A stretch of DNA of 49,012 bases from Bacillota bacterium (lineage in GTDB: Bacteria > Bacillota > SHA-98 > UBA4971). The position numbers and the translations under genes are program-made. The DNA is taken from positions 1 through 49,012 of the forward strand of contig DUSX01000038.1 of assembly GCA_012842395.1 (NCBI GenBank), written 5' to 3'. Shown here in pieces: positions 1 to 21,726 of this stretch. The notes under the pieces were generated by a model. It was not told the origin of the DNA and did no database searches. It worked only from the letters and a program-made list of their open reading frames with translations. Positions within the stretch are counted from its first letter, which is position 1; every line of letters starts with the position of its first letter.

Positions 1-520
1 CAGGTTTAGGCTGCTCGTGGATGAACCCCTTGTAAGCGACGAGGCCACCCCCGGGAAAGAACCTGGGAGCGACGTGCTCGGTCACCTTGCCCGATTCCCC
101 GACGTTCACGATGCGGCACCCGTACATGGCCTTGGGCGCGTGCCCGCAGGCGACCGCCTTCAGCGCCGCCCCTGAAGACGCGTCGAGACGCTCATCCGCA
201 TCGAGCACGAGTATCCACCCGCACGTCGCGTGCTTCAGGCTCTCGTTGCGGGCCGCGGCGAAGTCGTCGTTCCACTCGTAGTGGTATACCTTCGCGCCAT
301 ACTGGCGGGCGATCTCCACGGTGCAGTCGGTGGAGCCGGTGTCAACGATGACTATCTCATCGACAACGCCCTTGACGCTGTCGAGGCAACCGGGGAGGAA
401 CTCCTCCTCATTCTTCACGATCATGCAGAGGCTGATCTGGTGCTCCTTCTCGCTTTTCACGCGCCTTGCCTCGGCTCGTCTCTTTGCCTGCTTCTTCTTG
501 GTTGCGCGTCTATTTGCCAT
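1..520 (-). CDS. Family 2 glycosyltransferase, 3' end cut off by the window edge
   Basis: The reading frame opens at an ATG behind an AAGGAG site and runs off the left edge, so only about 173 N-terminal residues are visible. After a basic Lys/Arg/Ala-rich leader come the GT-A hallmarks of GT2 enzymes: MIVKNEE, the nucleotide-binding DTGSTD motif, and LDADE, whose last acidic residues bind the metal. No signal peptide or membrane segment is seen, so it should act in the cytoplasm. It lies divergent from a chemoreceptor gene and has its own sigma-28 promoter, which places it in the flagellar late-gene regulon. Modification of flagellin or another surface protein is the likely role, but the acceptor is inferred from the promoter only. 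Confidence 0.9.
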
Positions 521-582
521 CGTCGTGCAACGCTCCTTCGAACCGTGTCGTTCCGAACCGTGTCATATCGTGTCCATTCATC

Positions 583-609
583 ATATCGGCAATCGCGCGC
601 GCCCCTTTA
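583..609 (-). promoter_or_regulatory. Sigma-28 (FliA/SigD) promoter for the glycosyltransferase
   Basis: On the minus strand the sequence is TAAA, 15 bases, GCCGATAT, which is the sigma-28 consensus at both boxes with ideal spacing. The leader to the start codon is about 60 bases. A second such promoter on the opposite strand about 120 bases away serves the chemoreceptor. Confidence 0.85.
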
Positions 610-730
610 GCCCGGTCAAACCGGCCTGGTACAGAAACGTTCACACCAGCCGGCACGCGCCAGCACACTCAAGCGGGCCGTGCAAGAGATTGCCACGAGT
701 CTGATACTTGTCGGCAAAGCCACGAGGCTC

Positions 731-757
731 TAAAACGGTGGCGAAACCTGCCGATAT
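731..757 (+). promoter_or_regulatory. Sigma-28 (FliA/SigD) promoter for the chemoreceptor
   Basis: TAAA, 15 bases, GCCGATAT, 45 bases ahead of the chemoreceptor start. It supports late flagellar control of this gene and helps to reject the much longer upstream reading frame as the true start. Confidence 0.88.
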
Positions 758-801
758 ATGTACTTGACGAGTCTCTGGATACCTGGAGGGGTGGGGCGCC
801 T

Positions 802-2721
802 ATGAGATCTCGGATCCGGTTCGGGATGGGATTCAAGATCCTCGGGAGCTTCTTGCTGCTTCTTCTATTCATGGCGGTCATCGGATACTTCGGCCTGCAA
901 GGAGTCACCAAGGTCAGCACCGACCTCGGCAAGGTCGTCGACGAGCAGATGCTCCGCCTGACGCAGATCGAAGCCCTGCACGGAGCATTCGAGAGGTTCG
1001 CGATCGCGCTGCGCGGCTTTCTCCTCTTGGGTGATTCACGGCTCAAGACCGCCCTCAACGAGGCAGACACCGAGATTCAGCAGCAATTCGACGCGCTGTC
1101 GGGGGCCACGGTAAAAGGCGGAGGCGACGCGTCGAGCGACACCGGCGCCACCAGTGACACCGGCAGCATCGGCGACGCCGGAGACATCAAGACCGTCGCG
1201 GACATCCGGAAGCTCTGGGACGCCTGCCGGAACACGATCTTCCAGTACATCGATAACGGCCAGCTGGGCGAAGCGCTTGGCTACATGATGGCGGAGGGCG
1301 ATGGCATCATCAACGACATCCGCGACGAACTCGCGACGGGCCTGAAGGCCTACCAGGACGCAGCGGCGTCCGCGAGCGATGCGGCCAAGATAGCCGCGAA
1401 GAACGTCCGGGACCGCGCCATAGCCATCTTCGCTGCCGCCGTGGTGCTCGGTCTCATCCTCGCCCTCGCACTTGCGGCAAGCATCACACGCCCGACGAGG
1501 GCCCTCGCTCGCGCGGCCCAGGAGGTGGCCGCTGGCCACCTCCAAGTCGAGGTGCCCGGCACAAAGCGCAGTGATGAAGTAGGCGTCATGGCTCGCGCCT
1601 TTTCCGACATGGTCTCAAGCCTCCGCACCGTAGTAGAGGAGCTACGCGGCCACGCGAGACACGTGGCCTCCACCGGCCAGGAGCTCGCCGCGAGCACGGA
1701 TGAGGCGGCCATCGCCACCGAACAGGTAGCCAAGACCATCGAGCAGGTGGCAAAGGGTGCCGCGGAGCAAAGTGCAAGCGCCCATACGACGTCCACCGCC
1801 ACAAGCCAGCTCTCGGCCGCCATCGACCAGATAGCCAAGGGCGCTCAAGAACAGGCGGCCTCTGTGAATGAAGCCAACTCCGTGGTCGCGTCAATGGCCC
1901 GCCTTATGGAAGGGGTCTCGAAGGCCGTGGGCTCGCTCATCGCGGCCGCCGACAAGAGTCGCGCCGCCGCCGGGAGCGGCTCCCGCGCCGTCGACGACGT
2001 CATCGCGGGCATGGACGACATCCGCAAGCAGGCCGAGGCGGTGGCCGCAGGCATCAAGGACCTGGGAGCCCACTCCAGCGAGATCGGGAAGATCATCGAG
2101 GTCATCGACGACATCGCCGAGCAGACGAACCTTCTCGCGCTCAACGCTGCCATCGAAGCGGCCCGCGCAGGCGAGCACGGCAAAGGGTTCGCCGTCGTCG
2201 CCGACGAGGTGCGCAAGCTCGCCGAGCGCTCGGGCAAGGCGACCAAGGAGATCGCGGGGCTCATCACAACCATGCAGCGCAGCATTGAGATGGCGAAAAG
2301 CGCGACAGACGTGCAGGCGAGCCGGGTGTCCCAGGGCACTCAACTTGCGGGCCAGGCCGGCCAGGCCCTCCGCGAGATCGATGCGACCATGAACGCCATG
2401 AACGCCGAGGTCGAGAAGATCGCCGCTGCCGTGAAGGAGCTCGAGTCCTCCAGTGCCCAGGTGGTCAAGGCCATGGACAACGTGGCCAGCATCACCGAGG
2501 AGAACTCATCGGCCACCCAAGAGATGACCGCGTCCGCTGAGGAGGTCCGCAACGCGGTCCAGGCGATGGCCAGCGTATCCGAGCAAACCGCGAGCGCAGC
2601 GGAGCAGGTGTCTGCCTCCACGGGTCAGATGAGTTCCGCCATAGAGCAGATCGCCGCGTCCGCTCAGGACCTCGCGAAGATGGCGGCGGACCTTGAGAAG
2701 CTGGTGGCGAGGTTCGCGTAA
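802..2721 (+). CDS. mcp: Methyl-accepting chemotaxis protein
   Basis: A 639-residue transmembrane chemoreceptor. The ATG chosen follows a GGAGGGG site and lies just downstream of the sigma-28 promoter; the open frame extends 112 codons further upstream but that part is not credible. Residues 10-32 form the first membrane helix. A sensor region of about 170 residues follows, helical at its ends, with a low-complexity stretch rich in Asp, Thr, Gly and Ser. A second membrane helix lies near 205-228, then a HAMP domain, then the long coiled-coil signalling domain. The hairpin tip carries the conserved [16 protein letters not shown] near residue 450. It should signal through the CheA/CheW proteins encoded next door. 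The ligand cannot be predicted. Confidence 0.95.
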
Positions 2722-2972: not shown

Positions 2973-3518
2973 ATGTCAGCTTCAGTCAACGCGCCGGTCG
3001 GCGCAACGAACCTGAGGGATGAACCGGCGGGGGCCCGCGTCCAGGCGCAGGCGTCTTCCTCCGCCACGAAGCACGTCGTCGTGTTCCAGCTCGGCAAGGA
3101 GCTCTACGCCGTGAGCATCAGCGATGTCAGGGAGATCGTGCGCATGCAGCCTATCACACCGGTGCCCAGCGCCCCTGATTACGTGGAAGGCGTCGTGAAC
3201 CTGCGCGGCCAGGTGATCCCGGTGCTGAGCCTCGCGAGACGCCTGGGGCTTCCCGTCCAGCCGGTCACGTCCGCCACCCGTATAGTGGTGGTCCAGGCGG
3301 GGCAGGACACCATCGGAATGATCGTGGACTCTGTGGTCAAGGTGGCCCACATACCGGAGCAGGACATAGAAAAGCCGCAGGCTCTCACCAGAGAAGCGGC
3401 AGCTCTCGCATACGTGGTGGGCATCGCGAGGGCGGAGGACAGGCTCATCACTTTGATCGATCTTGAGCAGGCGCTTTCATTTGCCTCCACGCCCGGGCAA
3501 GCGCAGCGAAGTCAGTGA
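2973..3518 (+). CDS. cheW: Chemotaxis coupling protein CheW
   Basis: A 181-residue single CheW domain after a roughly 30-residue Ala/Ser-rich leader. Visible signatures are the opening VVVFQLGKELYAVSI, the segment VEGVVNLRGQVIPVLSL, and the strand IGMIVDSVVKV. The protein links chemoreceptors to CheA in the cytoplasmic array. The start follows AAAGGAG at good spacing. It is on the plus strand, facing the main motility operon, and its last 71 bases overlap the 3' end of csrA on the other strand. It may be cotranscribed with the chemoreceptor unless the repeat between them terminates transcription. Confidence 0.95.
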   Translation: MSASVNAPVGATNLRDEPAGARVQAQASSSATKHVVVFQLGKELYAVSISDVREIVRMQPITPVPSAPDYVEGVVNLRGQVIPVLSLARRLGLPVQPVTSATRIVVVQAGQDTIGMIVDSVVKVAHIPEQDIEKPQALTREAAALAYVVGIARAEDRLITLIDLEQALSFASTPGQAQRSQ

Positions 3519-7554: not shown

Positions 7555-8286
7555 CTATATCACCCCGTTCCCCTTTGCGTTGTCCGAGCTCAGCGCATTG
7601 AGGATCGTTGCGAGAGAGTTGTTGGTCGGCACGATGAAGAACAACGCCTCGACGCTCTCAAGGCTTTGCTTGAGCACCGTCTGGGCTACCAGTGCGTCCG
7701 TACCACCGTCCGCGCGGCCTGCGCCACCGGCGGGCCGCCCGCCCACGCATTCTCCCCCGGTGCCGGGCGACGCGGCCTCTTCATTGGTAGCCACCGAGGC
7801 CTCCAGCATCTTCGCGACAAACGTCTCCCCATCCAGCACAGGCGGGGCGGGCATGGCACGCAAGCCGGTGGCCTCCGCCAGCGAGTTCAAAAAGAAAGAT
7901 CCCGCGAGGTTGCCTACCTCACACAGGGCTGATCCGCCCATCTCCGTCAGACTGGTGGTCGTTCCCGGCTTGTTGCCCATGAGAATGTCCACCAGGCGGT
8001 AGGCGCTAGCACGCGGGAAGATGAGGATGACATCACCCGTAACGTCACCTGTGAGCCCGATCCTCACTCCGACAGTGGGTTCTTCCACGCTGTGCTTCGA
8101 CGCCTTGGCGATGTCCCGGCACGCCACGAAACACACGTCGGGCACGCTCATCTCGATCTTGCGGCCTATCATGTCGGAGAGCACCGATGCGGCGCTCTCC
8201 ATGCCTCTCGCCAGGATACGTTTCAGCGTATCGAGCTCGCTAGCACTGTAATTGATACTCGAAACGATCCTCGTTCCCTCCCTCAT
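7555..8286 (-). CDS. cheC: CheY-P phosphatase of the CheC/CheX family
   Basis: About 243 residues. The second active-site helix is intact: S119 ALC E123 VG N126 followed by a proline 22 residues on, matching the family pattern of Ser/Asp-x3-Glu-x2-Asn-x22-Pro. The equivalent first helix (from residue 18) reads LDTLKRILARGM, where the catalytic Glu and Asn positions hold Arg and Ala, so only one site looks functional. A Gly/Ala-rich insert of about 35 residues lies in the second half. The chosen ATG overlaps the end of cheA by 47 bases; starts further upstream would overlap more. No cheD, the usual CheC partner, is in this window. Confidence 0.88.
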   Translation of the reverse strand: MREGTRIVSSINYSASELDTLKRILARGMESAASVLSDMIGRKIEMSVPDVCFVACRDIAKASKHSVEEPTVGVRIGLTGDVTGDVILIFPRASAYRLVDILMGNKPGTTTSLTEMGGSALCEVGNLAGSFFLNSLAEATGLRAMPAPPVLDGETFVAKMLEASVATNEEAASPGTGGECVGGRPAGGAGRADGGTDALVAQTVLKQSLESVEALFFIVPTNNSLATILNALSSDNAKGNGVI

Positions 8287-10567
8287 AACCTGAGCCCGAC
8301 CCCGAGACATGGCTGCGGCCCACGGCCTTCTCCAGCACCCGCGCGACATCCAGGATCAGAGCGACTCGCCCGTCACCGAGAATGGCGCCACCCAGGACGC
8401 CCTTGGCACGCCTGGCGAGCCTGCCGAGGCTCTTGATGACTATTTCCTGCTCCCCGAGGAGCGAATCAACAATGATCCCCACCCGCATGTCCTCGTACCG
8501 CGCTACTACCACGAAGGCCCGCCCGCGAGCCCGCTCACCAGACTGCTCATCCGAACGGCTCGTGGCTAGCTCACCAGCCGGCTCGCACCCCCCGACGCTC
8601 GCTGCGGAGCCCCCGCCGCCCTCCCCAGACGAAGCCGGTGCACTGGCATCGTCTCTCCGCGCGAAATCCCGCAAGTCAAACACCGGCAGGACCTTGCCCC
8701 TCAGCACTATCGCGTGCCCCTGCCCGACTGGTTTGACCTCGGTAAGCGAGACGCGAGTAACCTCTACCACGGAAGACAGGGGGATCGCGAATTCCTGGCC
8801 ACACGATTCGACGAGGAGAGCTCTGAAAACCGCGAGCGTGAGCGGCACCGACAAGACGAAAGCCGTTCCCTTCCCGGCAGCGGTGTTCACACGCAAGGTG
8901 CCACCCAGCTTCTCGATGTTGGCGCGCACGATGTCCAAGCCGACCCCGCGTCCCGACACGTCATTCACCTGGGTCGCGGTGGAAAAGCCCGGTTGGAAGA
9001 TGAGCTCAATGGCCTCCTCGTCCGAAAGGGCCGCGGCCACCTCGGCGGAGATCATCCCCTTTCGCACCGCGGACTCGCGGACCCGCTCGAAGTCGATTCC
9101 TCCGCCGTCGTCCTCCACGGTGATGACCACGCGGTCCTCCACGTGTCGGGCAGCCAGCCGCACCCGCCCCTTTTCGGGCTTGCCGCGGCGGACGCGCTCT
9201 TCTGGCGGCTCTATGCCGTGCCCGACGGCGTTCCGGAGGAGATGTATGATGGGATCCGCGACCTCTTCTATCAAGGCCCGGTCGAGCTCAGTATCCTCGC
9301 CTTCCACGACGAACTCCACCAGCTTGCCAGAGCTTGCGGCGGTGTCCCTGACCATCCTGGGGAAGCGTTTGAACAAGCTCGAAAGCGGCGTCATCCTGGC
9401 CTTCATGACCTCTTCTTGGAGCTCGGTCGTGAGCCGGCCCATGTGGGCGGTGATCTGCTCGAGGTCCCCGATGGACTCCGAGTGGCCGTCGAGTGACGCG
9501 AGACGCCTTTGGACCTCGGCGAGCCTGGCCTCGTCTATGGCAAGCTCTGAGACTATGCGCACCATCTTGTCAAAGGCCTCGATGCCGACCCGGATGGTGT
9601 CCCCCTGGGATCTTCCCAAGAGCTTCGGCACATCGGACGCTGCCGTCCCGGTCTCATCGGCATTCTCGCCAGCCCCGCGAGCGCCGTTCCCGCCGGCACC
9701 AGCGGCAGCCTCGGCCTCGGCCTTAGCCTCGGCCTCAGGGCGGACCTGAGCGCAAGCGTGACGATCAGCCCCGGCACCGGTGTTCACATCAGCGTCCCCC
9801 TCGGCGTCAACCCCCGCCCCGCTGCCTGCGGCAGCAGCACCGGCGGAAGATTCCGGGCCCGCCCCCGCCGTAGCACCGTGCGCGCCAGGATGCACGCAGC
9901 GCACCTCCACGCGCTCGACGTCGGGCACCTCGCCGACCTTGCGCTCCACCTCTGCCTCGCTCACGGGTGACCCGAGCAGCAGCACGGCCGAGAGGTCCAG
10001 GCCCGCTTTCTCAGCCTTGATGTCATCCAGCGACGGCTGCGTCCCGGCGACCGTTCCGAGCTCTTGGAGGGCTTGTATGACCTGGAGAGCACGCACGGGC
10101 GGCATCGCCGTGTCATCCGCGAACCTCACATGTACCTCATACGTGCCGACCCCCAGTGAAGCGGCGCTCGCGAGCCGGGCAACGAGCGATTCGACGTCGA
10201 TTTCGCCGGCGCCGCGGACGCGCGGACCGCCGCCGGAGGCGTCGAGCTCCGCGGCAAGCGCCCGTAAGCCATCGACCGCTTCCAAGAGCACGTTCACCAG
10301 CTCTTGGCGAGGCGCGACCCTGCCGTCCCGCATGGCCGCAAACACATCCTCCATGGCGTGCGCGAGCGTGGACATCCTGGCGTGGCCTACGGTTGCCGAC
10401 GAGCCCTTCACGGTATGCGCTATGCGGAACATGTCCTGAAGGAGGGGCTTGTCGTGGCCCTCGCTTTCGAGCCTGACGATCTCCTCTTCGAGCGCTTCGA
10501 GCTCGTCGAGGGTTTCATCGAGAAAAAGCCTGATGTCCTCCGGAGTCAACGAATATCCTTCCGCCAC
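8240..10567 (-). CDS. cheA: Chemotaxis sensor histidine kinase CheA
   Basis: About 775 residues from a GTG preceded by TAGGGG. Domains in order: HPt with phosphorylated His51 (HTVKGS); a ferredoxin-like P2 region around 150-240; a long Ala/Gly-rich linker; the P3 dimerisation helices; the ATPase (N box HLLRNAVGHGIE, G1 box VEDDGGGID, G2 box GRGVGLDIV); and the CheW-like P5 domain, which has its own ~50-residue low-complexity insert. In the N box the usual DHG reads GHG. The short C-terminal tail overlaps cheC. It phosphorylates CheY and CheB under control of receptors. Confidence 0.96.
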   Translation of the reverse strand: MAEGYSLTPEDIRLFLDETLDELEALEEEIVRLESEGHDKPLLQDMFRIAHTVKGSSATVGHARMSTLAHAMEDVFAAMRDGRVAPRQELVNVLLEAVDGLRALAAELDASGGGPRVRGAGEIDVESLVARLASAASLGVGTYEVHVRFADDTAMPPVRALQVIQALQELGTVAGTQPSLDDIKAEKAGLDLSAVLLLGSPVSEAEVERKVGEVPDVERVEVRCVHPGAHGATAGAGPESSAGAAAAGSGAGVDAEGDADVNTGAGADRHACAQVRPEAEAKAEAEAAAGAGGNGARGAGENADETGTAASDVPKLLGRSQGDTIRVGIEAFDKMVRIVSELAIDEARLAEVQRRLASLDGHSESIGDLEQITAHMGRLTTELQEEVMKARMTPLSSLFKRFPRMVRDTAASSGKLVEFVVEGEDTELDRALIEEVADPIIHLLRNAVGHGIEPPEERVRRGKPEKGRVRLAARHVEDRVVITVEDDGGGIDFERVRESAVRKGMISAEVAAALSDEEAIELIFQPGFSTATQVNDVSGRGVGLDIVRANIEKLGGTLRVNTAAGKGTAFVLSVPLTLAVFRALLVESCGQEFAIPLSSVVEVTRVSLTEVKPVGQGHAIVLRGKVLPVFDLRDFARRDDASAPASSGEGGGGSAASVGGCEPAGELATSRSDEQSGERARGRAFVVVARYEDMRVGIIVDSLLGEQEIVIKSLGRLARRAKGVLGGAILGDGRVALILDVARVLEKAVGRSHVSGSGSGYEGGNEDRFEYQLQC

Positions 10568-10580
10568 TTGGCACCGACCC

Positions 10581-11525
10581 CTACCGCAAATAGTCCACAA
10601 GGGAAGTCTGCATTATCCCGGCAGCCGCCCCGAGGGCCGCCTTGTACACCGTCTCCTGCAACTGCAGGTCAGAGATGGCCTTGAACACGTCCGCATCTTC
10701 GGTCTTCGACAGAAGCGCCTCCAGCTCCACCTCGTCCTCGGACAGCTTGGCTGATGCCCGGTCTAGCCGTCGCACCTTCGCGCCGACGCCCGTGACGAGG
10801 TTCATGATCCGGTCTTGAGCCGCCTGGGTGGCACTGACGTCGGACGCGATATCGTCGTAGTACGTGGATGATGCATCGCCTGCGAGGAGGTGATCCCGGA
10901 GGTCCACGAGGATCTGGAAGAGGTTCCTATTGCCCGCCTCGCTGATGCCCTGCATGAACACCTCGCCGCCGTTCGCGTTGACCTGCATGGTCGTGCCGGG
11001 CTCGACTTCGACCTGCTTGCTGCCGTCGAGACCCTCATAGGTAACGGTCGTAACGGTAACGCCCGATGCGTCAGTGTTCTCTGTCAGCACAAAGGGCTTC
11101 GTGAGGGTCTTCAGGCCGGCGAAGATGTACCTGCCGTCGTATTCCGTGTTGGCGAGGTCCACGAGCTCGGCGATGAGGCCGTTCACGTCCTGCGCGAGCG
11201 CCTGCCGCTCGTCACCGGAGAGAGTGCTGTTCCCGGCGCGGAGCGCGGCGTCGGCGGCATTCTGGAACACCTCCTGTGCCTTCATGAGAGCCCGTTCGGT
11301 CGCGCCGAGCCAGTCCTTGGCATCGTCTATGTTGGTCTTGTGTTGCGCGACCCCTGCCCGAAGCGCCCGGATGGCCATGCCCCGCGAGGCGGCGATCGGG
11401 TCGTCTGATGGTTTCCGCACCCGCTTCCCGGTGGATATGTCCTCCGAAAGTCTCTGCATCCGAGCAAGTTGCTGGCTGATGTCCCTGGAAAGGTTGTTCA
11501 GAAGGTAACTCGTGCTCACACGCAA
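10581..11525 (-). CDS. flgL: Flagellar hook-associated protein 3 (hook-filament junction)
   Basis: About 314 residues with the FlgL pattern: an N-terminal coiled coil beginning RVSTSYLLNNLSRDI, the STGKRVRKPSDDP segment, a central beta region, and a C-terminal helix ending in LQTSL-like residues (MQTSLVDYLR). It is exported and joins the hook to the filament. The TTG start gives the canonical Met-Arg-Val N-terminus behind GGGAGGGG; a GTG three codons upstream is possible. It lies between flgK and cheA with a 13-base gap to the latter. Confidence 0.94.
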   Translation of the reverse strand: MRVSTSYLLNNLSRDISQQLARMQRLSEDISTGKRVRKPSDDPIAASRGMAIRALRAGVAQHKTNIDDAKDWLGATERALMKAQEVFQNAADAALRAGNSTLSGDERQALAQDVNGLIAELVDLANTEYDGRYIFAGLKTLTKPFVLTENTDASGVTVTTVTYEGLDGSKQVEVEPGTTMQVNANGGEVFMQGISEAGNRNLFQILVDLRDHLLAGDASSTYYDDIASDVSATQAAQDRIMNLVTGVGAKVRRLDRASAKLSEDEVELEALLSKTEDADVFKAISDLQLQETVYKAALGAAAGIMQTSLVDYLR

Positions 11526-19827: not shown

Positions 19828-20069
19828 AGCAGCCTGCTCCGCGACCAGGCAGAACCGCAGCGCACGACCTCTGACGTACGTCTCGTCGACCTGCGGCGAG
19901 TGGCTCCCTCAGGCGCAGGCACCTGGATACGTGCCGGCCGCGCGCGTGCGAGTGACGCCCGCGACTGATGGCGTCATGGATCGGCCTGTGCAGGAAATAG
20001 CAGATCCGGCCGAGAATACGAATTTCATCCTCGCGCGCTTGCGCAGCACAAAGAAGGGAGGTACGCTCC

Positions 20070-20906
20070 GTGAACGTGCTCCTGGTCTCGGCCGGTGAGA
20101 GACTGTACGGGCTCTCGCTCGACAACGTGGTGGAAGTCGTGCGGGCGTTGCGTTCGGATGTGAAGACTGCAAAGGGCAGGCCCGCCATAACCATCCGCGA
20201 GAGGGTCGTGCCCCTCGTTTGGCTCGCTGACGTGCTCGCCTCGCCTGGTGGCGGGCATCTCAAGGCGACGTTTCACGATCCGTTGCACACCCTTTCCCTC
20301 GACGAGGCCGTCGAGAAGGCCAAACCCGTGCTGGAGCAGGCCGCCCGCGATCCCAGAGCGGCATCCATGGACCCAGGCGCCGCCCTCGCGGTGCTCCGTG
20401 AATTGCTCGACGCGCATTGGTTCCTGGAGGTTGCATTCGTGATGAGGAAAGACGGCCGCGTCATCGCAGGCCCGATCGCGCGCGAGGGAGTGAAGATCGC
20501 AGGCGAGCTCGACATGGCCGCGCAGGATTGGTCTGCCCGGTCGTGGTTCCGCAACGCCATCCGAGGGGCGACCCACGTCACCGAAAAGTATGTGTCCGCA
20601 GCCACAGACTCGGTCTGCGTCACGGTCTCGACCCCGATAAGGAACGCATCCGGCGAGGTCATAGGGGTGATCGGCGCCGATGTTTCAGCGACGGTGGTGA
20701 GGGATCGGCTCTACGTAGTCATCGTGAACGACCAGGCACGGCAGGTCGGGGTGGTCGTGGATAGAATCGTGGGCAAGCGCGACGTCCAGGTGGAGCCCTT
20801 ATCGTTCGCGTTCGCCGGCCCGAATCTCTTGGGCACGGCGGTCCTCGACGACGGCGCCATCGCCATAATCGCGGACATGGAAGGCATAATGAAAGCAGCG
20901 TCGTGA
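20070..20906 (+). CDS. CheW-like protein with a Cache-type sensor domain inserted in the CheW fold
   Basis: A 278-residue soluble protein. Residues 1-57 look like the first half of a CheW domain (VLLVSAGERLYGLSLDNVVE, then IRERVVPLVWLADVL). Residues 213-275 look like the second half (LYVVIVNDQARQVGVVVDRIVG, then LLGTAVLDDGAIAIIADM). Between them lie about 150 residues with a helix and then a Cache/PDC pattern: WFRNAIRG, Y-S-AATDSVCVTVSTPIR, and SGEVIGVIGADVS. The insertion point is the loop where this genome's CheA P5 domain carries its low-complexity insert. No signal peptide or membrane helix is visible. I infer a cytoplasmic coupling protein that senses a small ligand directly. The GTG start follows AAGGGAGGT. 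It is alone, divergent from the flagellar operon. Confidence 0.85.
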   Translation: MNVLLVSAGERLYGLSLDNVVEVVRALRSDVKTAKGRPAITIRERVVPLVWLADVLASPGGGHLKATFHDPLHTLSLDEAVEKAKPVLEQAARDPRAASMDPGAALAVLRELLDAHWFLEVAFVMRKDGRVIAGPIAREGVKIAGELDMAAQDWSARSWFRNAIRGATHVTEKYVSAATDSVCVTVSTPIRNASGEVIGVIGADVSATVVRDRLYVVIVNDQARQVGVVVDRIVGKRDVQVEPLSFAFAGPNLLGTAVLDDGAIAIIADMEGIMKAAS

Positions 20907-21129: not shown

Positions 21130-21612
21130 TTAGCTCTCATGACCATCGAGGGTGCCAGCGGCACGTCCGGGCCGGAGCTCGCGAGACGGCGAAGGCGCGC
21201 GGGGCGTGTCCCCTTGGGCGCGAGGGTACACGGTGTGCTTCCAATACCATGGGGCGTCAGTGGCCTTGAGCTGACGCCTCGTCCTGGGAAGCTTGTACAG
21301 CTCGTACTCGGCCACAAGCCACCACTGAAAATCGGGGATCCTCCTGCCCGGTTTCGGGGGTCGGAACTCGCGGCACAGCTGGAATGCTCCCCTGTCCGTG
21401 ATAACGAGGTAATACTTGTGCGGGCGCTCCCAGTACTGTTTTAGTATGTGGAGTATACGGAAACACCGGCCGTTCCACCAGAAGCAGATGGGCTCAGGCG
21501 TCGGGGGATACCTGAACCCGACGAGCACGGACGCGTTTATGACCCTTACGACCTTTCGGAAGCCTTTGGCGTGTATCTGGACGCGGGGTCTTTTCTTTGG
21601 GGTCTTCCCCAT
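21130..21612 (-). CDS. Conserved-looking protein of unknown function, Trp- and Arg-rich
   Basis: A 160-residue protein with a good ATG behind GGAGGAGGG. The core (residues ~30-110) is a compact beta-rich segment with many aromatic residues: PICFWWNGRCFRILHILKQYW, HKYYLVITDRGAFQLCREF and DFQWWLVAEYEL. This resembles small DUF6504-type domains, in which a similar W/Y pattern recurs, but I cannot confirm that. The C-terminus is basic and Pro/Arg-rich. It is convergent with the CheW-Cache gene and divergent from murD. No function is proposed. Confidence 0.75.
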   Translation of the reverse strand: MGKTPKKRPRVQIHAKGFRKVVRVINASVLVGFRYPPTPEPICFWWNGRCFRILHILKQYWERPHKYYLVITDRGAFQLCREFRPPKPGRRIPDFQWWLVAEYELYKLPRTRRQLKATDAPWYWKHTVYPRAQGDTPRAPSPSRELRPGRAAGTLDGHES

Positions 21613-21726
21613 GCGCCAGCCCTCCTCCGGAAAGGATACAAACGAAACCAGAGGAACGAGGAAACGAAAGGCCCTTGTTACATTATTGTATCGCAATTGG
21701 GCAACTTTTGGAAAGGGCGAGTTCGT

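Follow-up and report, generated by a model that had tools for sequence, protein, structure and literature searches.

The P5 domain of CheA normally resides in the rings beneath the chemoreceptor tips, beside CheW. In Treponema denticola the soluble protein CheWS (CheW-CheRlike) joins a CheW-fold scaffold to a cytoplasmic metabolite sensor; it senses SAM from within the array and has been proposed to provide direct input to CheA (PMC10653840). In Vibrio the AIF domain of ParP is a P5-like CheW-fold domain that lies outside CheA and within the array core unit; it is closer to P5 than CheW is, and both the domain and a ParP-P5 fusion enter arrays (PMC5706961). CheV (CheW-REC) and the CheW-PAS and CheW-CZB fusions likewise unite the CheW fold with an extra input domain, and the CheWS paper reports unstudied CheW architectures, PAS fusions included (PMC10653840).

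In the window – the whole stretch of 49,012 nucleotides analysed, from a member of the Bacillota – a complete gene on the plus strand (20070..20906, stop included) encodes a protein of 278 residues in which residues 1-57 and 213-278 form one CheW-fold domain around an inserted PDC/Cache domain (hereafter the P5-PDC protein). As in CheWS, a CheW-fold scaffold and a cytoplasmic sensor domain occur in one soluble protein, which by its architecture belongs to the same kind; the sensor of CheWS, however, is CheR-like and C-terminal, and its CheW is joined end to end, whereas here a PDC domain is nested within a scaffold of the P5 type. ParP has an N-terminal ParC-binding part for polar localisation, and no sensor insert is described in the accessible part of its account (PMC5706961); the P5-PDC protein has its P5-like domain at the very N-terminus. 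From CheV, and from the CheW-PAS and CheW-CZB fusions, it differs in its input domain. Its novelty lies in three features: the nesting itself, a scaffold of the P5 type and a PDC domain as the sensor. A sequence-only reading of the window had taken the architecture to be undescribed: this stands for the three features just named but not for the underlying principle, since CheWS is already a published case of a CheW-fold protein that brings in a metabolite signal independently of receptors (PMC10653840). No description of a nested CheW-Cache architecture was found in the accessible literature.

The gene starts with GTG. Inspection of the sequence places a Shine-Dalgarno sequence, AAGGGAGG, at 20054..20061 (plus strand), with GGGAGG 8 nt 5' of the start codon, and the GGAGG core is kept upstream of all six orthologues. 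The first half of the CheW fold (aa 1-57, 20070..20240, plus strand as are all parts of the gene) begins at the same point as the P5 domain of CheA. It is followed by an entry linker of variable length, fast evolution and low model confidence (aa 58-75, 20241..20294), by the PDC/Cache sensor domain, which is supported by Pfam, profile and model (aa 76-208, 20295..20693), and by the P5-type second half (aa 213-278, 20706..20903), which reads GTAVLDDGAIAIIADM versus GGAILGDGRVALILDV in the genome's own CheA. A gene on the opposite strand was considered and rejected, the antisense frame being interrupted by stops. No membrane helix was found in the 278 residues (the highest 19-residue Kyte-Doolittle mean is 1.24), in keeping with the earlier view that the protein is soluble.

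Evidence for the nested layout came from sequence profiles and from a structure model. Pfam CheW (PF01584) matches the ends of the protein as two separate segments (E 1.2e-16, 61 bits); once the central part is removed, these become a single full-length match spanning profile positions 2-136 of 138, and the score rises to 71 bits. Two sensor families match the middle: MCP-like_PDC_1 (PF22673), whose curated cut-off is exceeded (37.5 versus 27 bits, E 3.5e-9), and dCache_1 (PF02743), at E 3.7e-10 and slightly under the cut-off of that family. A profile search from the six orthologues only found CheA P5, in both halves, and a PctA-type Cache domain; in T. maritima CheA merely 11 residues separate the matched P5 halves. 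Viral contigs were searched with orthologue, P5 and PDC profiles in order to deepen the alignment, and yielded no relatives.

Given five orthologues alone, AF2 was uninformative (pLDDT 35.6). With an eight-row alignment consisting of the orthologues, the P5 halves of the genome's own CheA and its own CheW, mean pLDDT was 74.5 and pTM 0.49, the orientation of the domains not being fixed by the model; pLDDT below 50 was restricted to residues 58-73, 140-153 and 208-212. The CheA-P5 and CheW rows of this alignment favour a CheW fold, but the fold is not owed solely to them, because the orthologue-only profile search agrees. Residues 1-276 of the model align with residues 544-671 of T. maritima CheA as a single domain, over 127 residues (Z 18.0, rmsd 2.4), CheW proteins coming after CheA P5 (Z 14-15; CheW 2qdl 14.7), while residues ~61-213 align with the PDC sensors KinD, CitA and PctB (Z 13-14). 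The PDC part is built of helices 77-92 and 102-115 and then strands, and the long N-terminal helix of the PDC fold is present. The flanks thus match both halves of PF01584 and close into one domain of the CheW fold, and the insert, with a profile match above cut-off and a PDC fold, belongs to the PDC/Cache superfamily. The sequence-only reading had seen the two ends as halves of one CheW fold and the centre as Cache-like, and had named structure prediction as the means of checking; on all of this it proved right, the middle forming a PDC domain separate from the closed flanks.

The same reading had spoken of a coupling protein, a term that did not survive comparison with two reference profiles drawn from related genomes, one built on 20 CheA P5 domains and the other on 22 CheW proteins. 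The excised protein scores 86-92 bits on the CheA-P5 profile versus 17-24 on the CheW profile, and a leave-one-out control with eight members per class sorted every one correctly. It is therefore closer to CheA P5 than to CheW proteins, and the best match in profile and in fold, across the full domain, is the P5 of CheA (T. maritima 4jpb, 2ch4 and 3ur1; E. coli 6s1k); in the orthologue profile search the PDB sequences matched by the flanks are CheA, with no CheW among them. Nor is the protein a CheA: it is free-standing, lacks P1-P4 and with them Hpt, dimerisation and HATPase domains, matches only CheW and Cache/PDC/PAS families, and carries a PDC insert of ~150 aa where T. maritima has a loop of 11 residues. 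The genomes of the genus encode ordinary CheW proteins besides it. The one at 2973..3518 (plus strand), a presumed array partner, served as CheW-type reference, and the CheA at 8240..10600 (minus strand; Hpt, P2, H-kinase_dim, HATPase_c, P5) is likewise a presumed partner. The P5-PDC protein is better called a free-standing, or detached, P5-type scaffold than a coupling protein.

The descent of the flanks is less certain than their profile affinity to P5. In the tree the six orthologues fall on the CheA-P5 side of a split with 100% support, the strongest branch; a branch joining them with CheW proteins is not rejected (p-AU 0.42), and descent from the genus's own CheA is neither shown nor rejected (p-AU 0.375), so that the tree does not fix the exact ancestor of the P5-like flanks. 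CheW has an E38-R62 salt bridge that is required for function and not for assembly (PMC3828127); the corresponding pair in the P5-PDC protein is E22-R43, which is invariant in the six orthologues.

The insert occupies the loop that connects the two halves of the P5/CheW fold, corresponding approximately to residues 569-580 of E. coli CheA. In the same genome the P5 of CheA (window 8531-8656, minus strand) and a second CheW (G000:C10:65784-66335) both carry long, low-complexity, Ala/Gly/Ser-rich insertions in this very loop, which indicates that it tolerates insertions; in the P5-PDC protein the insertion-tolerant loop has taken up a folded domain.

Most Cache domains (78%) are extracellular (PMC4822843), and a cytoplasmic one had at first seemed unusual. 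The relatives of the insert argue otherwise. Outside the genus, most of the sequences that match it best are PDC domains that form the last ~125 residues of Bacillota MCPs and stand behind the cytoplasmic signalling domain; since hydrophobic segments are confined to the N-terminal region in nearly all of these receptors, cytoplasmic PDC domains are common in Bacillota. The closest of them (e.g. loci L010, L043 and L045) share with the insert the N-terminal helices and the motifs R-x-W-[FY] and Y-[VI]-S, and differ in that their PDC ends a membrane-anchored receptor, whereas that of the P5-PDC protein lies inside a soluble scaffold. MCPs ending in a cytoplasmic PDC were seen at L010, L012, L013, L043, L045, L046, L047, L050 and other loci; a limited literature search found no description of such Bacillota receptors. 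Among the MCPs of the genus itself none matches PF22673, the matches to this family falling in the P5-PDC gene. The six genomes of the genus each encode a divergent MCP whose signalling domain is matched weakly, at 76-85 bits (G000:C34:340894-341352; orthologues L111, L112 and L114-L117).

Residues R157, W159, Y174 and D204 of the insert are invariant in the six orthologues and correspond to R126, W128, Y144 and D173 of PctA (PMC10104139); the R, W and Y of this pocket are likewise unchanged throughout the aligned PDC domains from the C-terminus of MCPs. The amino-acid motif of dCache_1AA comprises these PctA residues together with Y121 (PMC10104139). In the insert Q152 takes the place of Y121, and S176 stands where PctA has an Asp, two residues past Y144. 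Lacking a Y121 equivalent, the insert has an incomplete amino-acid motif; with this, and with a single PDC rather than a double Cache, it falls outside the dCache_1AA amino-acid sensors.

Each of the five further genomes examined in the genus carries a full-length, stop-free orthologue (71-81% identity). The family thus shows the nested arrangement that the first reading had proposed to look for, and an assembly fusion or chimera is excluded by six orthologous sequences and common gene neighbours. All domains are under purifying selection: dN/dS is 0.06-0.18 in the first CheW half, 0.05-0.23 in the second and 0.10-0.27 in the PDC domain, against about 0.2-0.9 in the entry linker (aa 58-75), making the domain borders visible in the evolutionary rates. 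Values well below 1 in all domains also exclude a decaying fragment. Mean pN is 0.130 for the PDC versus 0.069 and 0.105 for the P5 halves.

Loci from four relatives agree with the window in what lies 3' of the gene: a conserved ORF on the minus strand, then murD, folD and a gene resembling those of sigma factors. The small ORF between the gene and murD (MGKTPKKRPRVQIHAKGF..., ~21300-21640, minus strand) has 58-67% identity in the four relatives and is without a Pfam match. On the other side a divergent flgF and flg cluster adjoin the gene in the window and in all but one of the four relatives; at the remaining locus, L040, no flg gene occurs in the 10 kb upstream, and the murD side is conserved. 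The window as a whole contains a che/flg cluster with CheA, CheB, CheR, CheC, CheW and an MCP, and the P5-PDC gene stands alone, outside any che operon. The listed TTG start of the MCP (window 466-2721) lies ~350 bases upstream of the likely ATG; the protein is probably shorter.

A search of 398 genomes from the phylum turned up the nested layout in each of the six belonging to the genus and nowhere else; the sister genus is without the nested gene although some of its members have CheA and CheW. Three further class-level searches found none, two of which used a threshold of 1e-16 without a positive control and so show little. Plasmids yielded none, the best match being annotated as a PDC sensor protein, and an all-phyla scan with narrow patterns returned the genus only, a result that does not establish absence elsewhere.

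What might such a protein do? We think it reasonably probable that it is a soluble array-scaffold sensor, whose P5-like part sits in the rings while the PDC senses a cytoplasmic metabolite and shifts CheA; by analogy with the systems described above it probably feeds an intracellular signal straight into the chemotaxis kinase array. The gene, its nested two-domain layout, its conservation and its P5-type affinity have been computed; array entry and ligand sensing are what we infer. There is a good likelihood that the P5-like part would enter the rings of CheA and CheW, in a position resembling that of P5 or of CheW. The PDC would, with fair probability, bind a small metabolite of the cytoplasm, perhaps a carboxylate or a compound akin to an amino acid. 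Ligand binding might then alter the relation of the two barrels, or the occupancy of the array, and so shift CheA activity without a transmembrane receptor, a step on which we are more hesitant. The P5-PDC protein would be expected to combine, in nested form, the P5-type array entry of ParP with the sensor-on-scaffold input of CheWS.

Sensing need not be part of the role. The protein could be a structural array adaptor whose PDC is only a dimerisation or docking module: the N-terminal part of ParP likewise tethers arrays to the pole, and P5-type domains are able to integrate without kinase parts (PMC5706961). An incomplete pocket motif and the somewhat faster evolution of the PDC would also suit an adaptor; the invariance of R157, W159, Y174 and D204 in all orthologues, and of the R, W and Y in the C-terminal PDC domains of MCPs, would not, and we consider this role unlikely. 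The absence of Hpt, dimerisation and ATPase domains from a protein of P5-type affinity also raises the prospect of a kinase-less decoy that competes with CheA for CheW and receptors, leaving fewer active core units, perhaps under the control of a ligand. The authors of the ParP study propose that a P5-like domain takes over from some of the CheA-P5 (PMC5706961). The first step of a decoy is, however, the same as that of an array sensor, and we regard a decoy as improbable.

Action outside the chemotaxis array, for example in flagellar regulation, is suggested by the divergent position beside flgF in the window and three of four relatives, and by the absence of the gene from any che operon. The flg linkage is not fixed, however, as L040 shows, and the conserved P5 fold with its E22-R43 pair points to array partners; the chances of such a role seem to us very slight. 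As to a relic or artefact – a decaying detached CheA fragment or a misassembled frame, such as might be suspected of a single gene in metagenome-derived genomes – five orthologues, common neighbours and dN/dS well below 1 leave it hardly credible.

If the P5-PDC protein is indeed a soluble array-scaffold sensor, one may tentatively ask whether it represents a separate class of array component, one that occupies a P5 site within the rings, tunes CheA directly by an intracellular metabolite, and was made by moving the C-terminal sensor of a chemoreceptor into the baseplate; we see this as possible rather than probable. Were the sensor role true, the protein would be the second example, after CheWS, of a baseplate-built sensor, structurally different from it and equipped with a well-understood sensor fold. 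A sensor inside a scaffold domain would, in addition, offer a simple test of whether shifting the P5/CheW barrels suffices to switch CheA, and it draws attention to the cytoplasmic C-terminal PDC domains of many Bacillota chemoreceptors.
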